Assembly: GCA_003228915.1 (NCBI GenBank)
Contig: QIGL01000023.1
Coordinates: 1-40,059, forward strand
DNA from: Acidiferrobacteraceae bacterium
Lineage (GTDB): Bacteria > Pseudomonadota > Gammaproteobacteria > Acidiferrobacterales > SZUA-150
Length of the DNA stretch: 40,059 bases
Direction of reading: 5' to 3'
Shown here piece after piece: positions 1,933-32,330 of this stretch. The notes under the pieces were generated by a model, which was not told where the DNA came from, ran no database searches, and worked only from the letters and a program-made list of their open reading frames with translations. Every line of letters begins with the position of its first letter. The first letter of the stretch is position 1. The translations under genes were made by a program, and so were the position numbers.

Positions 1933-3903
1933 ATGAGCAAATGGTCAATCGACAAGGCGCGTGCGGTCTACAATATTGCTAGCTGGAGCGATGGTTTTTT
2001 CGACATCAACGAGTCTGGCCAGCTGGAGTATTGTGACCAGGGCCAGCAACAGTCCCGGAAACAGACTGAAAAGACCAGCAAGCTGTCCTTCCCGGAACTG
2101 GTACAAGCAATCAGGGATGAAGGTTTACAGCTTCCCGTACTGGCCCGTTTTTCAGGTATTTTACGGGAGCGTCTGCAACACTTGATCACCGCCTTTGATC
2201 AGGCCCGGGATAGTCTCGACTATACAGGTAAGTACACAGCGATTTACCCGATCAAGGTTAACCAGCAACGCAGTGTGGTTGAAACTTTGCTCAAGGCTGG
2301 CGGTGACCGACTGGGTCTTGAGGCTGGCAGTAAACCTGAGTTGTTGGCGATGTTGTCAACTATGGCACCTGGCGGCGTCATTGTTTGCAACGGCTATAAA
2401 GACCGGGAATTTATTGAGCTTGCCATGGCCGGGATTGCCATTGGTTTTCGGGTGTTTGTCGTCATTGAAAAACTGAGCGAGCTGGATTTGTTAATCGAAG
2501 TGGCCCGGGAAGTCGGCCTCAAGCCGAACATCGGGTTACGTGTTCGCCTGGCAACAGTTGGCAGCGGTAATTGGCAAAATAGTGGTGGAGATAAATCCAA
2601 ATTTGGCCTGGCCGCCAGCGAGATCCTGCAGGCAATTACAAAAATAAAATCGGCCCGGTTGGAAGACTGTTTCAACATGATTCATTTTCACATGGGCTCG
2701 CAAATTGCCAATCTCGATGATATCAGCAAAGGCTTACAAGAGGCCGTCCAGTATTACGTTCAGTGTTGCACCTTAACCCGGCCGGTGAACGTGATTAATG
2801 TGGGCGGCGGCCTCGGTGTGGATTACGAAGGTACCCAGTCGCACAGTTACTTTTCAAAAAATTATAGCTCAGAAGACTATGCCCGCACTATCACAACGGC
2901 CATTAAGGAGGCCTGTACCCGACATCATTTGCCGGAGCCTGAGATATATAGTGAATCAGGCCGGTCACTGACGGCCCACCATGCGGTGTTGATTACCAAC
3001 GTCCTTGAGGTGGAGCAGCCACCTCGATTCCAGCCCGGGAATTTGACTGATATAAAAAAATCCCAACTGCCTGTGGCTCTGGGAAAATTACTGGATTTAT
3101 ATCAATCACTGCCAAAGATCATGCAAGAGACCCTACCAGAGAGCTTGTCTGGCGAAGTTGTAGCGAAAACTTACCACCAGGCAGGCCAGTATTTATCAGA
3201 ATTACAGGGGGATTTTTCACGGGCACAATGTTCTTTGGAGTATCGCGCTGCCGGAGAAAGCATTTATGTGTCTATTTGTGTTGCCATAAGAGAAATACTG
3301 GACCTGGCCAATCATGGGCAACCTGAAAAAATTAAAGGCGAGATCCTGGATCTATTAAATGAAAAACTGGTAGATAAATATTTTTGTAATTTTTCTGTAT
3401 TCCAGTCGGCACCTGATATTTGGGCCATGCAGCAAATTTTTCCGATCATGCCTGTGCAGGGTTTAAAAGATGAGCCCACCAGGCGCGGCGTGATTGTTGA
3501 TATTACCTGTGACTCCGACGGCCGTATTGATCATTATGTGGATAACAAAGGCATTGAGGCCAGTCTGCCGCTACATGAAGTGGACAATGACCAGGACTAT
3601 TTAATTGCAATATTTTTGGTGGGTGCTTACCAGGAAATTCTTGGTGATATGCATAATTTATTTGGCGATACCAATTCTGTAAATGTTAGCATCACGGGGG
3701 AAAACAGCATTAAACTATCCGAAATTGATCGTGGTGACACGGTCTCATCTGTTCTGGAATACGTGCACTACGACCAGACCGTCCTGGCCGTGGCATTGGA
3801 ACAAAAAGTAAAGGCAGCATCGCATTTACAGGATTCAACCAGAGAGTCTTTGTTGACGACAATCAGGCGCGGGTTAGCGTCTTACACTTATCTGAAAAAT
3901 TAA
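1933..3903 (+). CDS. speA: Biosynthetic arginine decarboxylase
   Basis: PLP-dependent enzyme that converts arginine to agmatine, the first step of the agmatine route to putrescine. Its 656 residues are close to the 658 of E. coli SpeA. The fold-III decarboxylase motifs are present: the PLP lysine in YPIKVNQQ (K108), GLEAGSKPEL (128-137), HFHMGSQI (251-258) and GGGLGVDYEG (291-300). The catalytic cysteine lies in DITCDSDG near residue 526. The start MSKWSIDKARAVYNI is typical of the family. Divergent from speE, it forms a polyamine pair, although the steps from agmatine to putrescine are not encoded nearby. Confidence 0.96.
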   Translation: MSKWSIDKARAVYNIASWSDGFFDINESGQLEYCDQGQQQSRKQTEKTSKLSFPELVQAIRDEGLQLPVLARFSGILRERLQHLITAFDQARDSLDYTGKYTAIYPIKVNQQRSVVETLLKAGGDRLGLEAGSKPELLAMLSTMAPGGVIVCNGYKDREFIELAMAGIAIGFRVFVVIEKLSELDLLIEVAREVGLKPNIGLRVRLATVGSGNWQNSGGDKSKFGLAASEILQAITKIKSARLEDCFNMIHFHMGSQIANLDDISKGLQEAVQYYVQCCTLTRPVNVINVGGGLGVDYEGTQSHSYFSKNYSSEDYARTITTAIKEACTRHHLPEPEIYSESGRSLTAHHAVLITNVLEVEQPPRFQPGNLTDIKKSQLPVALGKLLDLYQSLPKIMQETLPESLSGEVVAKTYHQAGQYLSELQGDFSRAQCSLEYRAAGESIYVSICVAIREILDLANHGQPEKIKGEILDLLNEKLVDKYFCNFSVFQSAPDIWAMQQIFPIMPVQGLKDEPTRRGVIVDITCDSDGRIDHYVDNKGIEASLPLHEVDNDQDYLIAIFLVGAYQEILGDMHNLFGDTNSVNVSITGENSIKLSEIDRGDTVSSVLEYVHYDQTVLAVALEQKVKAASHLQDSTRESLLTTIRRGLASYTYLKN

Positions 3904-3967
3904 TTTTCGTGAATGAAATAATACTACCAACATGTCTTTGGTTTATTTTTTTTAAATTATTTAAATT

Positions 3968-4573
3968 TTAATGATCGCCGGATTTTACTTTCAATAAATA
4001 AGCCCGTATGCCCATTTGTTTGAGTTTCTGGTTAGTTGATTCCAGGCTGCTGAGGCTGGTAAATGGCCCGAGCCTGACCCTGTGAAACTGGCCCCTGCCC
4101 TCAATGGTGACTTTTTGAATCCTGGCGTTTAAACCATTGAGCACGAGACTGGCCTTGAGTCGGTCGGCATCCTGGAAGCGTGTAAATGAGCCGGCCTGTA
4201 AAATGTAACGTACGTTTTTTGCAGTTTTTTCTGGCGGCAGTTTTTTAACATCTGATTCAGATACGACCGTCTCGATTTCTGGCAGGATAGTATAAAAATT
4301 AAAATGGGGTTTTGCTGTTTTTTTAATTTCTTTTTTAACCCTGTCTTGCTGGTCATGTTTATTTTGTGATTGTTTGGCAGCGTTTAGCAGGTTATGAAAA
4401 CCACTGCCTGGCTGACCGGTTCTGCTGATAACAAGCTGGATCAAGAGCACAAATATTACGCCAGTAACCAGGCCAATCCCCAGCATTACCCATGTCGGTA
4501 ATGGTTTGGGTTTGCCACGACGGGTTGCCGAGCGTCGCTTGGTATTTTTTTTAGCCCTTTTTTTAATTTGCAT
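3968..4573 (-). CDS. SPOR-domain membrane protein, FtsN-like
   Basis: Bitopic inner-membrane protein of 201 residues. A basic cytoplasmic tail (residues 1-27) is followed by one membrane helix (about 28-50), a variable periplasmic linker, and a C-terminal SPOR domain (about 121-198, with VRYILQAGSF and FHRVRLGPF). SPOR domains bind denuded glycan strands at division septa, and this layout matches FtsN, the division activator. I place the start at the ATG of MQIKKRAKK. The longer frame from 4624 would overlap argS and adds a cysteine-bearing stretch unlike the family. The position directly downstream of argS on the same strand is common in Gammaproteobacteria. Function as the true FtsN is likely but not proven by sequence. 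Confidence 0.82.
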   Translation of the reverse strand: MQIKKRAKKNTKRRSATRRGKPKPLPTWVMLGIGLVTGVIFVLLIQLVISRTGQPGSGFHNLLNAAKQSQNKHDQQDRVKKEIKKTAKPHFNFYTILPEIETVVSESDVKKLPPEKTAKNVRYILQAGSFTRFQDADRLKASLVLNGLNARIQKVTIEGRGQFHRVRLGPFTSLSSLESTNQKLKQMGIRAYLLKVKSGDH

Positions 4574-26436: not shown

Positions 26437-27753
26437 ATGGGAACAAATCAAAAATCCTCCATAATTTTATTGCTCACTATAATCATTAGTGGCTGGCTGC
26501 CGGATGCCCTGGCTGAAGAATTATTTATTGAGCCTGAAGATGCCGTGGTTCCCGTGGTTGATGAAATACGATTCGTTGGCAATGAAACTACTCAGCCAAA
26601 AATAATGTTACAGGAAATGATTATTGCGGTTGGTGACCCGGTGAATGCAAGGCTCATGGAAAAATCCAGACAGTACATTATGAACCTGAAGCTTTTTAAA
26701 ACCGTTAAGGCCGAAATGATTGAAGAGGATTATAAAAATATCCTGCTGATCACCGTAGATGAGAAATTTTATATATTGCCATTACCGCGAGTGAACAGGA
26801 ATTCCGACGGTGATATCAAGGCTGGAGGCGAAGTGCGCTGGGATAACATCATGGGCCTGAACCAGAGATTAAAAGTATCGTGGGATCGAACCCGGGCGGC
26901 CAAGAATGATATTAATGATAAGGATAAAAGCAAAATCGATTACACCTATCCGCGCATGTTTGATACACCTTTTACTTTTAATATTAATTCTCAACGGAAA
27001 ACGACAAATATTGAGGATGTTACTGATGCAGGCGAAAATGTAGAGGCTGAGCAGGTTGGTGTGTTTTCAGGCTTCAACTTCTTTAGGTGGCATAATCGAC
27101 ATGGGCCAAGCAGGGGGCTTCGATATGGCGCAGGCATGTCCCGTGGTGTCGTTAAGTATAAGACTAAAACAGGTCCCGATGATTTTTACATTAATACACG
27201 CCTTGTTACCTTAGACCTGGGCGTTGCTTATGAAGCGGTACAAAATCTGGAATGGAGCCGTACCGGGAGCGAGTATGGTTATAATATTGCTATCGGTTTG
27301 AGAGGCCTGGGTTCTGACCAGGGCCATACAACGAGTAGCTTATATTACCGTGGCTATACTCATATATTTGGTATCCCTAACTATAATCTAAATACCCAGG
27401 TGCGATTCGGGTTTTCAAATTTTAGAAATGAGGCACTGGCTATTGGCGGTGCCGACTCGTTACGTGGTTATGGCCGGGGTGATTTTACAGGCAACGCAAT
27501 GTTTTTACTGAACCTGGAATATTTAATGCCGATTTGGGGTTATAAGCCAATCCGGTTTTTACTTTTTACAGATATTGGTAATACCTATCCCAAATTAAGC
27601 GAAGTTGATTTAACCGACTTGAAATTTGCGATTGGTAGCGGTTTGCGTTGGAAGGTCAGACAGCTCGTTAAAACTGATTTACGCCTGGATGTCGCTTATG
27701 TGCCGGAGACTGGCGAGACCCGGGTTATTGCCAGTACCAATGAAACTTTTTAG
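26437..27753 (+). CDS. Omp85-family outer-membrane protein with one POTRA
   Basis: Secreted protein of 438 residues: a signal peptide (about 1-26, ending DALA), one POTRA-like domain (about 38-112, VVDEIRFVGNETTQPKIML to ILLITVDEKF), then a 16-strand-type barrel ending in phenylalanine, as expected for recognition by the BAM machinery. Motif GGADSLRGYGRGDF (about 337-350) is the conserved RGY/RGF loop of the Omp85 superfamily, and NLEYLMPIWG the following strand. With one POTRA it is shorter than BamA (five) or TamA (three), so the substrate is unknown. It could export or insert a partner protein or a lipid. It lies 70 bases after hemE and ahead of two GGDEF genes. Confidence 0.8.
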   Translation: MGTNQKSSIILLLTIIISGWLPDALAEELFIEPEDAVVPVVDEIRFVGNETTQPKIMLQEMIIAVGDPVNARLMEKSRQYIMNLKLFKTVKAEMIEEDYKNILLITVDEKFYILPLPRVNRNSDGDIKAGGEVRWDNIMGLNQRLKVSWDRTRAAKNDINDKDKSKIDYTYPRMFDTPFTFNINSQRKTTNIEDVTDAGENVEAEQVGVFSGFNFFRWHNRHGPSRGLRYGAGMSRGVVKYKTKTGPDDFYINTRLVTLDLGVAYEAVQNLEWSRTGSEYGYNIAIGLRGLGSDQGHTTSSLYYRGYTHIFGIPNYNLNTQVRFGFSNFRNEALAIGGADSLRGYGRGDFTGNAMFLLNLEYLMPIWGYKPIRFLLFTDIGNTYPKLSEVDLTDLKFAIGSGLRWKVRQLVKTDLRLDVAYVPETGETRVIASTNETF

Positions 27754-27854: not shown

Positions 27855-29102
27855 ATGGATGTAGGTGCAAATCGAGGACGGGATACACTGGAAAAAATCC
27901 TTGTGGTCTTGCGAAATCTCTTGCAAACAGAGGAAGGCGGAGAGATTTATGATCATATCGAAGCCGGGTATAAGATATCCGGGAAATTCACCGATATGGT
28001 TGATCATGCCTTTGTTAGTTTTCTTGATGGTCGCCTCAATGCTTATATTAAAAATGTAGATAGTGACCCGGCAACACGAATGATCGCCCGGCTCGTGCAG
28101 CGGCGGGTGATTCCCTATCTGGCTGATGCCGATACTGGTATTACAGATGAAAAAGATCTGGAGGCAGTTCTGGTGCTGGCACTGCAACAGGCCGCTGATA
28201 ATGTCAAAACCATTCAGCGAGAAGATATTGCCGCCATAGAATCTGCCCAGCTTGAAGACCTGGATAATTCTGTTATTTCCGAAGAAGAAAAGGTGCCGCG
28301 GGCCAACCTCACACGCCAACGACGGGAGCTCGAGTCATTACAAAATACTATTGACAAAAGCCTGCACCAGATTCTGCTGCGCAACACTGATTTTTTATCT
28401 AATCTAAAAACCATCCGGGTGGCCCTGGAAATACCGGAAGAAAGCAATAGTGGCGAGATGCAACACGTACTCCTGGAAGGAGTTGATGAAATGATTGCCT
28501 GGCAGGGCGCTCTCAAAGATGACCTTGAGTATGCCAGGAAAAATCTCAAAACCATGCGTGCCGGCAATATGAGCTTGCACGCAGAAATAATTAACGTACG
28601 CAAGTTGACCCAGACTGATGAATTTACCGGTCTGCCAAATCGCGTGGCGCTAATAAGACAATTACAATCAGAGATAACCAGGTCAGTCAGGTATAAAACG
28701 CCGTTGAGCCTGGCATTGATATCGATTGATGGCCAGGAGCAAACGATTAAACAATCTGTGGATCTTGCCGACGAAATTATCAGAATTTATGCAGAAGAAG
28801 TGTTATCAGGTTTCCGTGGTTACGATATGATTGCCCGCATTGGCATTAATGAATTTGCCTTGTTATTGCCCAATACACCTATTGATGGTGCCCACAGGGC
28901 CATGACCGAAGCGCAGCATCGTTCCGGCCTGGTAAAATTTGAACATGTGGCCAGGACCGAAACCTTGCCCACATTTACCTGTGGTGTTGCCCAACACCAG
29001 GAGGGCGAAGCTGCTGATAGTTTTCTGGCCCGAACCGAAACAGCCCTGAAATCGGCCCAGGACCAGGGCGCCCTCAGTATTGTGTCGGCGAGCGCAACTT
29101 AA
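27855..29102 (+). CDS. GGDEF-domain protein with degenerate active site
   Basis: Cytoplasmic, 415 residues, no membrane segment. The N-terminal domain (about 8-95) ends in DPATRMIARLVQRRVIPYL and is shared with the next gene's product. A helical middle part leads to a GGDEF-like domain (about 250-410, DEFTGLPNR). The signature is GINEF (330-334) rather than GGDEF, and the metal/substrate motif FKxxND is lost (ISIDGQEQTI). The inhibitory-site motif RGYD (321-324) is kept. By analogy with degenerate GGDEF proteins it is more likely a cyclic-di-GMP receptor or a partner of the next gene than an enzyme. Start ATG with a nearby GGGAT. Confidence 0.85.
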   Translation: MDVGANRGRDTLEKILVVLRNLLQTEEGGEIYDHIEAGYKISGKFTDMVDHAFVSFLDGRLNAYIKNVDSDPATRMIARLVQRRVIPYLADADTGITDEKDLEAVLVLALQQAADNVKTIQREDIAAIESAQLEDLDNSVISEEEKVPRANLTRQRRELESLQNTIDKSLHQILLRNTDFLSNLKTIRVALEIPEESNSGEMQHVLLEGVDEMIAWQGALKDDLEYARKNLKTMRAGNMSLHAEIINVRKLTQTDEFTGLPNRVALIRQLQSEITRSVRYKTPLSLALISIDGQEQTIKQSVDLADEIIRIYAEEVLSGFRGYDMIARIGINEFALLLPNTPIDGAHRAMTEAQHRSGLVKFEHVARTETLPTFTCGVAQHQEGEAADSFLARTETALKSAQDQGALSIVSASAT

Positions 29103-29267
29103 TACGTTCTACATGCAGGCTTGGCAAGCCCTGTTTCTGATAGCTGTCCTGCCCGCTTCGGCGTATACTTCAGTAAATACCCGTATTAACCCTTGTTTTA
29201 CCTATAGTTACGAGCTATTTTTGATATATAACTTGAGTTGGCTACCTCCTGACAGGGCCTCGCTAAT

Positions 29268-30824
29268 ATGACTGATTCACCAACCGGCACACCATCAATT
29301 CTGGAAGAGTTGCGCACGAGTCTGGAAGGACTCAAGCGCACCAATGATGGGGCAATGCTGTTCAGGATGATCGAACGTGGTCTGGCAAGATATGATACCC
29401 CCGGCGGCAGTATGGAAGACGCCTATATGCGTTTTCTGTATACCTTGTTGGGCCGGTTTGCCAGTGACAGTAACGGAAATCCCATGACCCGGGTCAAGGC
29501 CCGTATTATCCAGCAACGCCTGGCACCCTATGTTGATCTTGAGAAAATCAAAGATCGAGCCAGGCGACCCGTTAGTTCACGGGCAGCGGTAGCAAAACAA
29601 GTACCGGTATCAGCTCAGGGGACAGAAAAATCCAAACCGGAAATTACCACGAGCAATAAATTTGAGACTGATTTAAAGCCAGCAAAGTTTAGTCTTCCCC
29701 CGCTAGAAAATGAGCCAGAGAACGAGGAAATAGAGCCCTTAACGGAAAATCAATCGCCTGAAATTGAAACTCAGTCACTAGACTTGCCAGGTGAGCGAAC
29801 AGATGAACCAACAGGAGATCAGGCAGACACTGAAACACCGGAATTTTTTGAGTTAGACGATTCCGAGCCAACAGAAATTGAACCAGCAGAAATTATAAAA
29901 TCAGAACAAGTCGGGATCGATGGACTCGAAATACCTGGAGAACTTGAAGATATCAGGTCCGAGCTTATCAGTGAACCAGTACCAGGTATGGGTGCTGCTT
30001 CGATTACGTCTGTTCCTGTCCAGGCCGCCGGTGCAAATATTGATAATATTAGTGACGAGCTGGAATCAAACCTCAGTAATACCGTTGCCAAAAATAAAGA
30101 ATTTAACGGCTTGCTAAAATCAAACCTGAAGGCACTGGAGCTAGCGGAAAATGCCGATGACCTAATGGATTTAAAACAATTATTGATGCGGGGATTGCAA
30201 GATCTGGTGCAAGGTCAGGAAGTGTTAGGCAATGATCTGGTCCAGGCCAACCAATTTATCCAGGAAGTGAAAGAAGACAGAAAACTGCTTAAGGTTCGTG
30301 TTGAGAAATTGGCCAAAAATGGTGTAACTGATGAATTAACAGGGCTACCTAAACGTGAAATGTTAATCAGGCAGCTTGAGTCAGAAGTGGGCCGGGCCCG
30401 TCGTTACGGTTTTTCTCTGGCCCTGTCGATACTGGATATTGATAATCTTGATTTGATTAACCAGCAATATGGTCGTGCGGCCGGTGATGAAGTGATTTCC
30501 TGTTATGTACGGGAAGTATTGGCCAACTTTCGTGCCTATGATTTTGTGGCCCGTTACGGCGGTGATGAATTTGCAATTGTATTTCCCAACACACCAAAAG
30601 ATGGTGCTTACCGAGCACTGGAGAAAGCCAGAAAAGTTGCTGCAGATACCGTAATAAATCACGACGGCAAATCTATCCCTTTGCCAGGTTTTTCAAGTGT
30701 ATTAACGCTATACTCCCAAGGCGAAAAACCAGAGGTGTTATTGCAAAGGGCCGATGAGGCACTAAGCATGGCAAAATTACGGGGTACCGGTCAAACCCTG
30801 GTATCATTGCCGCCACCTCAATAA
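29268..30824 (+). CDS. Diguanylate cyclase (GGDEF)
   Basis: Predicted to make cyclic-di-GMP from two GTP. The 518-residue cytoplasmic protein is a paralogue of its upstream neighbour. The shared N-terminal domain (about 6-95) contains NPMTRVKARIIQQRLAPYV. A long acidic, low-complexity linker (about 120-260, rich in Glu, Pro and Thr) follows, then a helical segment and the catalytic domain (about 345-510). It has DELTGLPKR, LDIDNLDLINQQYG, an intact GGDEF (431-435) and the inhibitory-site RAYD (422-425). The linker is the main difference from the partner. No sensor domain I recognise is visible, so the input is unknown. Confidence 0.9.
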   Translation: MTDSPTGTPSILEELRTSLEGLKRTNDGAMLFRMIERGLARYDTPGGSMEDAYMRFLYTLLGRFASDSNGNPMTRVKARIIQQRLAPYVDLEKIKDRARRPVSSRAAVAKQVPVSAQGTEKSKPEITTSNKFETDLKPAKFSLPPLENEPENEEIEPLTENQSPEIETQSLDLPGERTDEPTGDQADTETPEFFELDDSEPTEIEPAEIIKSEQVGIDGLEIPGELEDIRSELISEPVPGMGAASITSVPVQAAGANIDNISDELESNLSNTVAKNKEFNGLLKSNLKALELAENADDLMDLKQLLMRGLQDLVQGQEVLGNDLVQANQFIQEVKEDRKLLKVRVEKLAKNGVTDELTGLPKREMLIRQLESEVGRARRYGFSLALSILDIDNLDLINQQYGRAAGDEVISCYVREVLANFRAYDFVARYGGDEFAIVFPNTPKDGAYRALEKARKVAADTVINHDGKSIPLPGFSSVLTLYSQGEKPEVLLQRADEALSMAKLRGTGQTLVSLPPPQ

Positions 30825-30857: not shown

Positions 30858-30885
30858 GCGATGTAACAAACATCGTCCCTTTTTT
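30858..30885 (+). terminator. Probable terminator after the GGDEF gene
   Basis: Six-bp stem CGATGT / ACATCG (30859-30864 and 30870-30875) with an AACAA loop, then TCCC and six T (30880-30885). The stem is short, so the confidence is moderate. It separates the cyclase from the GT2 gene 33 bases downstream. Confidence 0.5.
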
Positions 30886-30917: not shown

Positions 30918-32330
30918 GTGCCAGATAAAGTTGCAATTATAATCCCGGCCTACAATGAAGCCGCGACTATTAATGATATTGTCTTAAGGTGTCTGGCAAT
31001 TACAAAAAATGTTTTTGTTATTGATGATGGCTCAGTTGATGAAACACTGGCAATAATTCAGCAAACTACTGCCCATTTATTAATCAATCCAGCCAACCAG
31101 GGAAAAGCCGCCAGTATGTGGCGAGGCATGCAGGCAGCCCTGGAGAATGGCGCAGAATTTATTATTACCCTCGATGCAGACGGTCAGCATGCCCCGGAAG
31201 ATATCCCCCGTATTTTAGATGCAGCGAAAAAGAATCCTGAAAAAATTATTATTGGTTCGCGCATGAGCGAAAAATCAGCTTTTCCAAAAAAAAGATATTA
31301 TGCAAATAGTGTCGCCAATTTCTTTATATCCTGGGCCGCAGGTTATGAAATTGAAGACAGCCAGTCGGGCTTCAGGCTTTACCCGGCCAGTCTTGTCAGA
31401 AAATTAAAAATCCCATATGACAAGTCGCGGAGTTTCGTTTTCGAAAGTGAGGCCCTGATCGAAGGTGCCAGGATGGGTTATACCAGTATTTTTGTCGCTA
31501 TTCCCGCACTCTACCAGGAGAATGCCAGGGCCAGTCATTTTCGTTCGGTTCTGGATATTGTTCGCATAACGTTAATGGTGGCCTGGAAAATTAATAGTCG
31601 TTTCCTGTATTTGCCGGGTCTATACAGGGGCGTAATTCGACCTGCCCTAAGACGAGCAAGATTTGATGAGTTGGGTTTCCATGGATTACTGAGTTTGTTG
31701 CTTTCAAACTTGTTGATCGTGGGTACCCTGGGCCTGTCGTATATTTGGCATTGGTTTCGGGTATTGCGATTGGCAAAAACATCAGCTACTGATGCAAGGG
31801 AACCAAACGTTGTCATCGTATTGGGTATGCGCCTCAAGGAAAATAAACCCGTTAATGATTTTGTTTTGCGGTTAGAACGGGCGTTAAATTTATATCAAAA
31901 ATATGATTCTATTAAATATATTATTTTGGGCGGGTTTACGGGTAGCAGCAGGTTAACAGAAGCCCAGTGTGGTGCGGACTACCTGGTCAGTCAGGGTATG
32001 TCTGCCAACAACATACACCGGGAAGAAAGTTCCCGACATACTTTTGAAAATCTTGTCTGTGCCCGGGATCTTATTAAAAGTAGCGGGTCTGGCAGGCCTG
32101 TCATTATTTCCAACCGTTACCATTTGGCCCGTTGCCGGGTTTTTGCTAAGGAACTGGGCCTGGATTGTGAGCTCTGCGCCGCTGAAGAAAATTTTATATT
32201 CGGCCCGAAGAACTTTTTTCAGATAGGTCTAGAGGCCTATTATGTTCACTGGTTTATGGTCGCCCGACTCTGGTCAAAGATTACCGGTGCAAAATTTGCC
32301 CGCCATAGCTCGAGAAAGAATATTGCCTGA
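30918..32330 (+). CDS. GT2 glycosyltransferase fused to DUF218 domain
   Basis: Two families in one 470-residue chain. Residues 1-about 225 are a GT-A glycosyltransferase of the dolichyl-phosphate-mannose-synthase type: VAIIIPAYNEAATIND, VIDDGSVDETL, NQGKAASMWRG, and the DxD in LDADGQHAPEDIP. A hydrophobic segment (about 250-275) is likely a membrane anchor. Residues about 293-445 form a DUF218 (YdcF/SanA/ElyC) domain: NVVIVLGMRL, YIILGGFTGSSRLTEA and VIISNRYHLARCRVF. DUF218 proteins act in envelope and polyprenyl-phosphate steps, so the fusion may glycosylate or process a lipid carrier; this is inference. The start is GTG at 30918 with a weak Shine-Dalgarno. Confidence 0.85.
   Translation: MPDKVAIIIPAYNEAATINDIVLRCLAITKNVFVIDDGSVDETLAIIQQTTAHLLINPANQGKAASMWRGMQAALENGAEFIITLDADGQHAPEDIPRILDAAKKNPEKIIIGSRMSEKSAFPKKRYYANSVANFFISWAAGYEIEDSQSGFRLYPASLVRKLKIPYDKSRSFVFESEALIEGARMGYTSIFVAIPALYQENARASHFRSVLDIVRITLMVAWKINSRFLYLPGLYRGVIRPALRRARFDELGFHGLLSLLLSNLLIVGTLGLSYIWHWFRVLRLAKTSATDAREPNVVIVLGMRLKENKPVNDFVLRLERALNLYQKYDSIKYIILGGFTGSSRLTEAQCGADYLVSQGMSANNIHREESSRHTFENLVCARDLIKSSGSGRPVIISNRYHLARCRVFAKELGLDCELCAAEENFIFGPKNFFQIGLEAYYVHWFMVARLWSKITGAKFARHSSRKNIA

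Follow-up and report, generated by a model that had tools for sequence, protein, structure and literature searches.

The window (the whole 40059-nucleotide stretch of Acidiferrobacteraceae bacterium DNA analysed here, genome G000) carries a gene that joins a GT2 glycosyltransferase and a DUF218 domain in a single chain. Comparison with related genomes identifies the GT2 half as a glycosyltransferase of xanthomonadin/aryl-polyene (APE) clusters, which make yellow bacterial pigments, and this DUF218 subfamily as an accessory part of those clusters, found fused, adjacent, or elsewhere. We consider it probable that the fusion is a membrane-bound two-part enzyme of APE assembly, in which GT2 and DUF218 would catalyse successive steps on the glycolipid anchor of the polyene.

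Architecture of the fusion protein

The gene occupies window positions 30918-32330 (plus strand, as are all the features below), starts with GTG, and encodes 470 amino acids; the first-pass annotation had warned of a possible hidden stop between the halves, and translation of the frame reveals no internal stop. Residues 1-244 (30918-31649) are the GT2 half, orthologous to the stand-alone GT2 of APE clusters: Pfam PF00535 matches residues 7-158 with 89.1 bits against a cut-off of 23.3, and a local HMM of the APE GT2 family, to which the window protein itself belongs, gives 372.8 bits. The DxD is D86-A87-D88 within LDADGQH (31173-31181); D86 is invariant in all 14 rows of alignment A1, and the second aspartate is lost in one genome (G111). 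There follows a probable membrane helix at about residues 256-274 (31683-31739), the only hydrophobic segment of its kind in the protein (19-residue Kyte-Doolittle mean 1.85), and then the DUF218 domain at residues 298-417 (31809-32168), where PF02698 scores 70.3 bits, above the curated threshold of 27.6; the corresponding local HMM of the APE DUF218 family, again with the window protein as a member, gives 281 bits. Pfam and hydropathy agree with the architecture originally proposed, namely a GT2 enzyme with an intact DxD joined through a single hydrophobic stretch to DUF218, and the domain limits given at that stage (residues 1-225 and 293-445) are fair.

In a 34-row alignment of the DUF218 halves, Thr375 (32040-32042) and His402 (32121-32123) are equivalent to SanA Thr125 and His149; the first column holds T and the second H in 33 of 34 rows, and the remaining row has a gap in each case. 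Glu439 (32232-32234), part of an E-A-x-x-x-H-W motif, is E in 31 of the 34 rows and is not in one alignment column with SanA Glu182; it is a candidate counterpart of Glu182 as the third residue of the triad. In SanA, Thr125, His149, and Glu182 are each reported to be needed in vivo (PMC12176290).

A hydrophobic segment with a mean above 1.6 is present in 14 of 17 fused rows and in 16 of 17 separate DUF218 rows, and at the C-terminus of none of 32 GT2-only rows, indicating that the helix belongs to the DUF218 module. The charges flanking it show no bias (mean net 1.6 on either side; 13 versus 14 of 34 rows), and by the positive-inside rule they favour neither a periplasmic nor a cytoplasmic DUF218. 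An AlphaFold2 model from the single sequence had a pLDDT of 38.5, too low for use.

The fusion recurs in other genomes

The GT2-DUF218 fusion is real and not an assembly error, an artifact that is excluded because the same fusion recurs elsewhere in 13 full-length and 3 cut copies. It is present in 17 genomes altogether, 14 with a full-length single frame and 3 in which the gene is cut by a contig end (G057, G156, and G178), and the 13 further full-length proteins are 33-86% identical to the window protein. Among 60 relatives (own genome included), a whole-protein search found the fusion in seven (G000, G001, G004, G007, G040, G054, and G057); among 369 genomes of the class, 41 had a whole-protein match at E<=1e-30, and 12 of these are fusions (G000, G057, G111, G156, G178, G179, G292, G324, G339, G345, G371, and G388). 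The two contig ends in G156 overlap with 99% identity over 229 bases, and were counted as one cut fusion, with both pieces kept as separate rows in the residue alignment, hydropathy, trees, and charge counts. The GT2 of G005 stands alone and ends at a real stop, and a scan of genome contigs returned only four distant GT2 loci. In a phylum sample of 398 genomes, the same threshold (E<=1e-30) gave seven matches, all from the same class, with no fusion besides the window's own. The first-pass annotation had suggested looking for the same fusion and for split neighbours in other genomes; the former is found in 16 others, and separate GT2 and DUF218 pairs are also found in 16.

The GT2 half and aryl-polyene clusters

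Stand-alone GT2 orthologues without DUF218, 55-58% identical to the GT2 half, occur in six relatives, either at the same site after the KR gene or in the same operon. In G052, G014, and G005 the row reads MMPL exporter, ketosynthase (KS), chain-length factor (CLF, PF13723), dehydratase-like gene (DH; it has no Pfam match and is named by its cluster position), ketoreductase (KR), and then GT2, with LolA and an LpxL-type acyltransferase upstream; in G052 there follow a gene resembling FAD halogenases, one for a chorismatase of the FkbO/Hyg5 type, and DUF218 as a gene of its own. By its content, this gene set is a xanthomonadin/aryl-polyene cluster.

The fusion itself lies in or beside an APE cluster, as recognized by local HMMs, in 12 of the 17 fusion genomes: i) directly after KR in G040, G054, G292, and G178, where the order is KS-CLF-DH-KR as far as the contigs show; ii) tail to tail with KR in G111, G179, G324, G345, and G339, and, by way of a contig bridge, in G057; and iii) near the AMP ligase of the APE cluster in G007 and G388. 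No APE gene was found in the stretch read around the fusion in the other five (G000, G001, G004, G371, and G156). In G339 (L137, L190) the fusion and a KR fragment are some 80 kb from the remaining APE cluster, which suggests more than one departure of the fusion gene from its cluster. Separately, G054 has what appears to be a second fusion of APE genes, a 925-aa frame (L066:4064-6841) with AMP-ligase and FAD halogenase-like parts.

The GT2 half is related in sequence to dolichol-phosphate-mannose (DPM) synthase and ArnC, with the DxD present, and the DPM-type label first given to it agrees both with this likeness and with the naming of Lysobacter ORF15 (see below). NCBIfam PpgS scores 91.8 bits, below its cut-off of 370. 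The solved GT2 structures of DPM synthase, ArnC, and Sll0501 share the GT2 domain and match only the GT2 half of the window protein; DPM synthase and ArnC are the closest solved relatives by sequence, and have, by name, polyprenyl- or dolichyl-phosphate as acceptors. The sequence of the window enzyme indicates neither a donor nor an acceptor.

DUF218 as an accessory component of APE clusters

GT2 and DUF218 are encoded by separate genes in 16 genomes (15 from the class sample, and G052). DUF218 adjoins GT2 in five of these, in the order of the fusion in G113, G249, G128, and G415 and in reverse order in G196; it lies elsewhere in the cluster in eight (G052, G124, G180, G254, G277, G355, G389, and G420), including G124 and G254 where it is found within LpxL-DUF218-DH-LolA; and in the other three it is on short contigs without other recognized APE genes (G186, 3.4 kb; G295, 4.1 kb; and G104, 5.0 kb). 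Taking PF13723, the APE chain-length-factor family, as a marker for APE clusters, we found that 27 of the 28 class genomes with an APE-type DUF218 at E<=1e-25 have the marker, compared with 87 of all 369; the hypergeometric p is 8e-18 with kinship ignored, the genomes bear 21 family labels, and the DUF218 cut-off was set after seeing the match list. Ten genomes have only weaker DUF218 matches, down to 1e-8, and PF13723 is present in four of these and missing from six. The single exception among the 28 is G067, with an APE-type DUF218 and no PF13723 match; this genome has one DUF218 gene and a partial second copy (L172:2305-3009 and 3797-4264), an orphan or a decayed cluster. We regard the link between DUF218 and APE clusters as strong.

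DUF218 is missing from 13 of the 41 class genomes with a whole-protein match, several of them finished or nearly so, and is thus an accessory part that is not needed for every APE product. Three genomes without DUF218 (G025, G029, and G044) have dialkylresorcinol (DAR)-like genes, which gave rise to the idea that DUF218 marks clusters without DAR genes. We rejected this idea: a DarB-like query matched 12 of 54 genomes, 8 of them with DUF218 (G000, G001, G004, G007, G128, G186, G295, and G371) and 4 without (G025, G029, G044, and G411).

Evolution of the fusion

The distribution of fused and separate states over the GT2 tree requires at least 3 label changes, yet a test of one clade for the fused GT2 domains gives p 0.054; a single origin of the fusion, the scenario that we tried on this tree, is at the edge of rejection and not clearly rejected. 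In G113 and G249 the two parts are separate genes with a 4-base overlap; this pair falls within the fused proteins on both the GT2 and DUF218 trees, and is best read as a later split of the fusion. One clade for the 34 APE DUF218 rows gives p 0.228, which neither rejects nor establishes it, in a tree that took three other DUF218 proteins and left out L006 and L081. LDAD is replaced by LDSN in the fused GT2 of G111 (L145:7611-9002), whose branch is very long, while the DUF218 of the same protein is intact; the GT2 half may be a pseudo-enzyme, and the loss of the second aspartate suggests that glycosyltransferase activity is not kept in every fusion.

The gene in its own genome

The APE cluster of G000 is on contig C63, where we found an LpxL-type acyltransferase, LolA, MMPL, KS, CLF, DH-like, and KR genes; the KS passes the NCBIfam PRK09185 cut-off and the KR that of a FabG model. 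A XanB2-type chorismatase is encoded on contig C37, with an FkbO/Hyg5 match below the cut-off. After the KR, the site occupied by GT2 in relatives, the GT2 is missing, and searches of the open frames in the fetched stretches of C63 and C37 with GT2 and DUF218 models found neither (best E 0.18 and 0.28). When the GT2 paralogues that the first search found in this genome are ranked by the APE GT2 HMM, the window gene comes first with 373 bits, followed by a paralogue with 102; the window gene is on a contig of its own (C12), outside the APE cluster. G001 and G004 are the same, with a cluster that has no GT2 in the stretches read and a fusion elsewhere. A cluster without GT2, together with a top-scoring paralogue elsewhere, points to the window gene as the relocated APE glycosyltransferase of this family, and we conclude from these scores and locations that it is an orthologue of the APE-cluster GT2 that has moved, rather than a cluster gene. 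Because the G000 assembly is incomplete (116 contigs), another APE GT2 copy in this genome is possible.

Contig C65 of G000 (L189:8309-9451) has a gene for a DarB-like KAS III, 58% identical to that of G029, near a KS and a halogenase-like gene; given this DarB-like gene, the G000 polyene may be a dialkylresorcinol ester of the arcuflavin/flexirubin type.

The region upstream of the fusion has two GGDEF-domain genes (27855-30824), the first probably inactive with GINEF in place of GGDEF and the second with GGDEF intact, and these are preceded by a gene for a short Omp85 protein of 438 aa with a single recognized POTRA match (26437-27753); the GGDEF pair and the Omp85 gene have the same order and place in G001 and G004. 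Every fusion-bearing genome of the family, three in all, retains the order Omp85-GGDEF-GGDEF-fusion. A pattern scan found a hairpin with a T run, a possible terminator, between the second GGDEF gene and the fusion (30858-30884; -7.7 kcal/mol, z -3.24), in a region that has 8 such patterns versus 1.5 expected. The hairpin makes simple read-through from the GGDEF gene less likely.

Relation to known systems

The arc genes of Azoarcus are described as a xanthomonadin/APE-type cluster with a glycosyl transferase, ArcE (PMC3949708), and the Lysobacter cluster as ORF1-17, in which homologues of ORF15 beside KS/CLF are called dolichyl-phosphate mannose synthase (PMC3691225). Both resemble the window GT2, ORF15 in being of dolichyl-phosphate-mannose-synthase type beside a KS/CLF pair (PMC3691225) and ArcE in being the glycosyl transferase of its cluster (PMC3949708), the likeness in each case being drawn from their descriptions. 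DUF218 is not mentioned for either in the available text of these papers (PMC3691225, PMC3949708), whereas in the window protein GT2 and DUF218 share a chain, and its gene lies apart from the cluster. The E. coli ape genes are likewise an APE cluster, for whose product the published model has a (glyco)lipid as anchor (PMC8253772); the anchoring of the polyene on lipid is proposed to be the task of ApeJ and ApeD, and apeJ and apeD mutants are reported to accumulate late intermediates (PMC8253772). ApeJ of E. coli CFT073 (558 aa) has a GT2 domain that is 32% identical over 222 residues to the window GT2 and works in the same pathway, which places the GT2 type of the window protein in a pathway modelled on (glyco)lipid anchoring (PMC8253772). 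The second part of ApeJ is described as an acyltransferase (PMC8253772), whereas that of the window protein is DUF218, and no DUF218 was found in the E. coli APE cluster. A preprint on the structure of the APE lipid is cited in PMC9966250 and PMC8253772.

Scored with the APE DUF218 HMM, SanA reaches 55.6, YgjQ 52.8, ElyC 37.4, and YdcF 8.3 bits. SanA and YgjQ resemble the window DUF218 in having one N-terminal membrane helix, a DUF218 domain, and the Thr/His site, but unlike the window protein are unfused and outside pigment clusters; ElyC shares the DUF218 domain, but differs in its two predicted membrane helices and more distant sequence. SanA is reported to act in peptidoglycan synthesis (PMC12176290) and has been tied to it and to lipid II availability (PMC12176290, PMC13251401), and ElyC has been linked to lipid-carrier metabolism and enterobacterial common antigen (ECA; PMC3879167).

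GT2 enzymes are known in APE clusters. The literature searched, with subscription papers, preprints, and supplements outside its scope, contained nothing that ties DUF218 to polyenes or APE clusters and no GT2-DUF218 fusion, and the available text of PMC12176290, PMC3879167, PMC12419801, and PMC10734462 describes no such fusion. PMC3482391 was rejected as a DUF218 source, as the match in its available text is to the longer name DUF2185.

Possible functions of the fusion

The two-part enzyme that we propose would work as follows: i) GT2 would use a nucleotide sugar to glycosylate a membrane lipid at the cytoplasmic face, where polyprenyl phosphate and the anchor lipid of the pigment itself are the candidates; ii) DUF218, held by its own helix and equipped with a SanA-type Thr/His site, would carry out the next step on the glycosylated lipid, before or during export via the MMPL/LolA machinery of the cluster; iii) the fusion would couple these two steps; and iv) in G000 the gene, though out of the cluster, would still be serving it. 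The first-pass annotation had taken the fusion as a hint of a shared lipid-linked substrate and as giving DUF218 a testable function, and both the cluster context and the co-occurrence place the two halves in the APE pathway.

DUF218 could instead be a regulator or substrate gate that ties the pigment GT2 to the status of carrier lipids or precursors in the envelope, as has been proposed for ElyC and SanA, whose phenotypes concern the lipid carrier and lipid II allocation (PMC3879167, PMC12176290, PMC13251401). The 13 of 41 matching genomes without DUF218 are in keeping with such a role, which we nonetheless think unlikely, given that no row reaching the Thr and His positions lacks these residues and that SanA requires each of its Thr, His, and Glu in vivo (PMC12176290); pocket residues that are both kept and needed suggest catalysis or specific ligand binding. 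The Omp85-GGDEF-GGDEF-fusion order common to G000, G001, and G004, away from the APE cluster, might mean that in these three genomes the fusion has left pigment synthesis for another glycan, perhaps a c-di-GMP-linked exopolysaccharide, beside the two GGDEF genes. This we judge quite improbable: all three keep an APE cluster, and the stretches read of these clusters contain no GT2 (the HMM check being for G000), the window sequence stays in the APE GT2 family with 373 bits, and a hairpin stands between the GGDEF gene and the fusion. Finally, the GT2 tree implies at least 3 switches between fusion and separation, as might be expected if chance co-transcription had led to a neutral fusion and DUF218 were an envelope housekeeping protein apart from the pigment; that 27 of 28 genomes have the APE marker, and that DUF218 takes three different arrangements in the cluster, makes this explanation very improbable.

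We wish to raise one wider proposal, speculative and on balance doubtful, in which DUF218 proteins in general would be enzymes acting at the membrane on sugar-bearing polyprenyl-phosphate or a similar lipid-linked sugar. The APE GT2 would make the lipid-linked sugar, DUF218 would transfer the sugar to the polyene anchor or free the carrier, and ElyC and SanA would perform the matching step in ECA and peptidoglycan. If true, such matching steps would explain the carrier-lipid phenotypes of these two proteins.

DUF218 is widespread, with effects on peptidoglycan and ECA among its E. coli members; one subfamily can now be placed, as comparison of genomes suggests, in a coloured and dispensable pathway with a defined product class. 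Sharing one chain with the glycosyltransferase of that pathway makes DUF218 directly testable by colour, by product mass, and by site-directed mutants.
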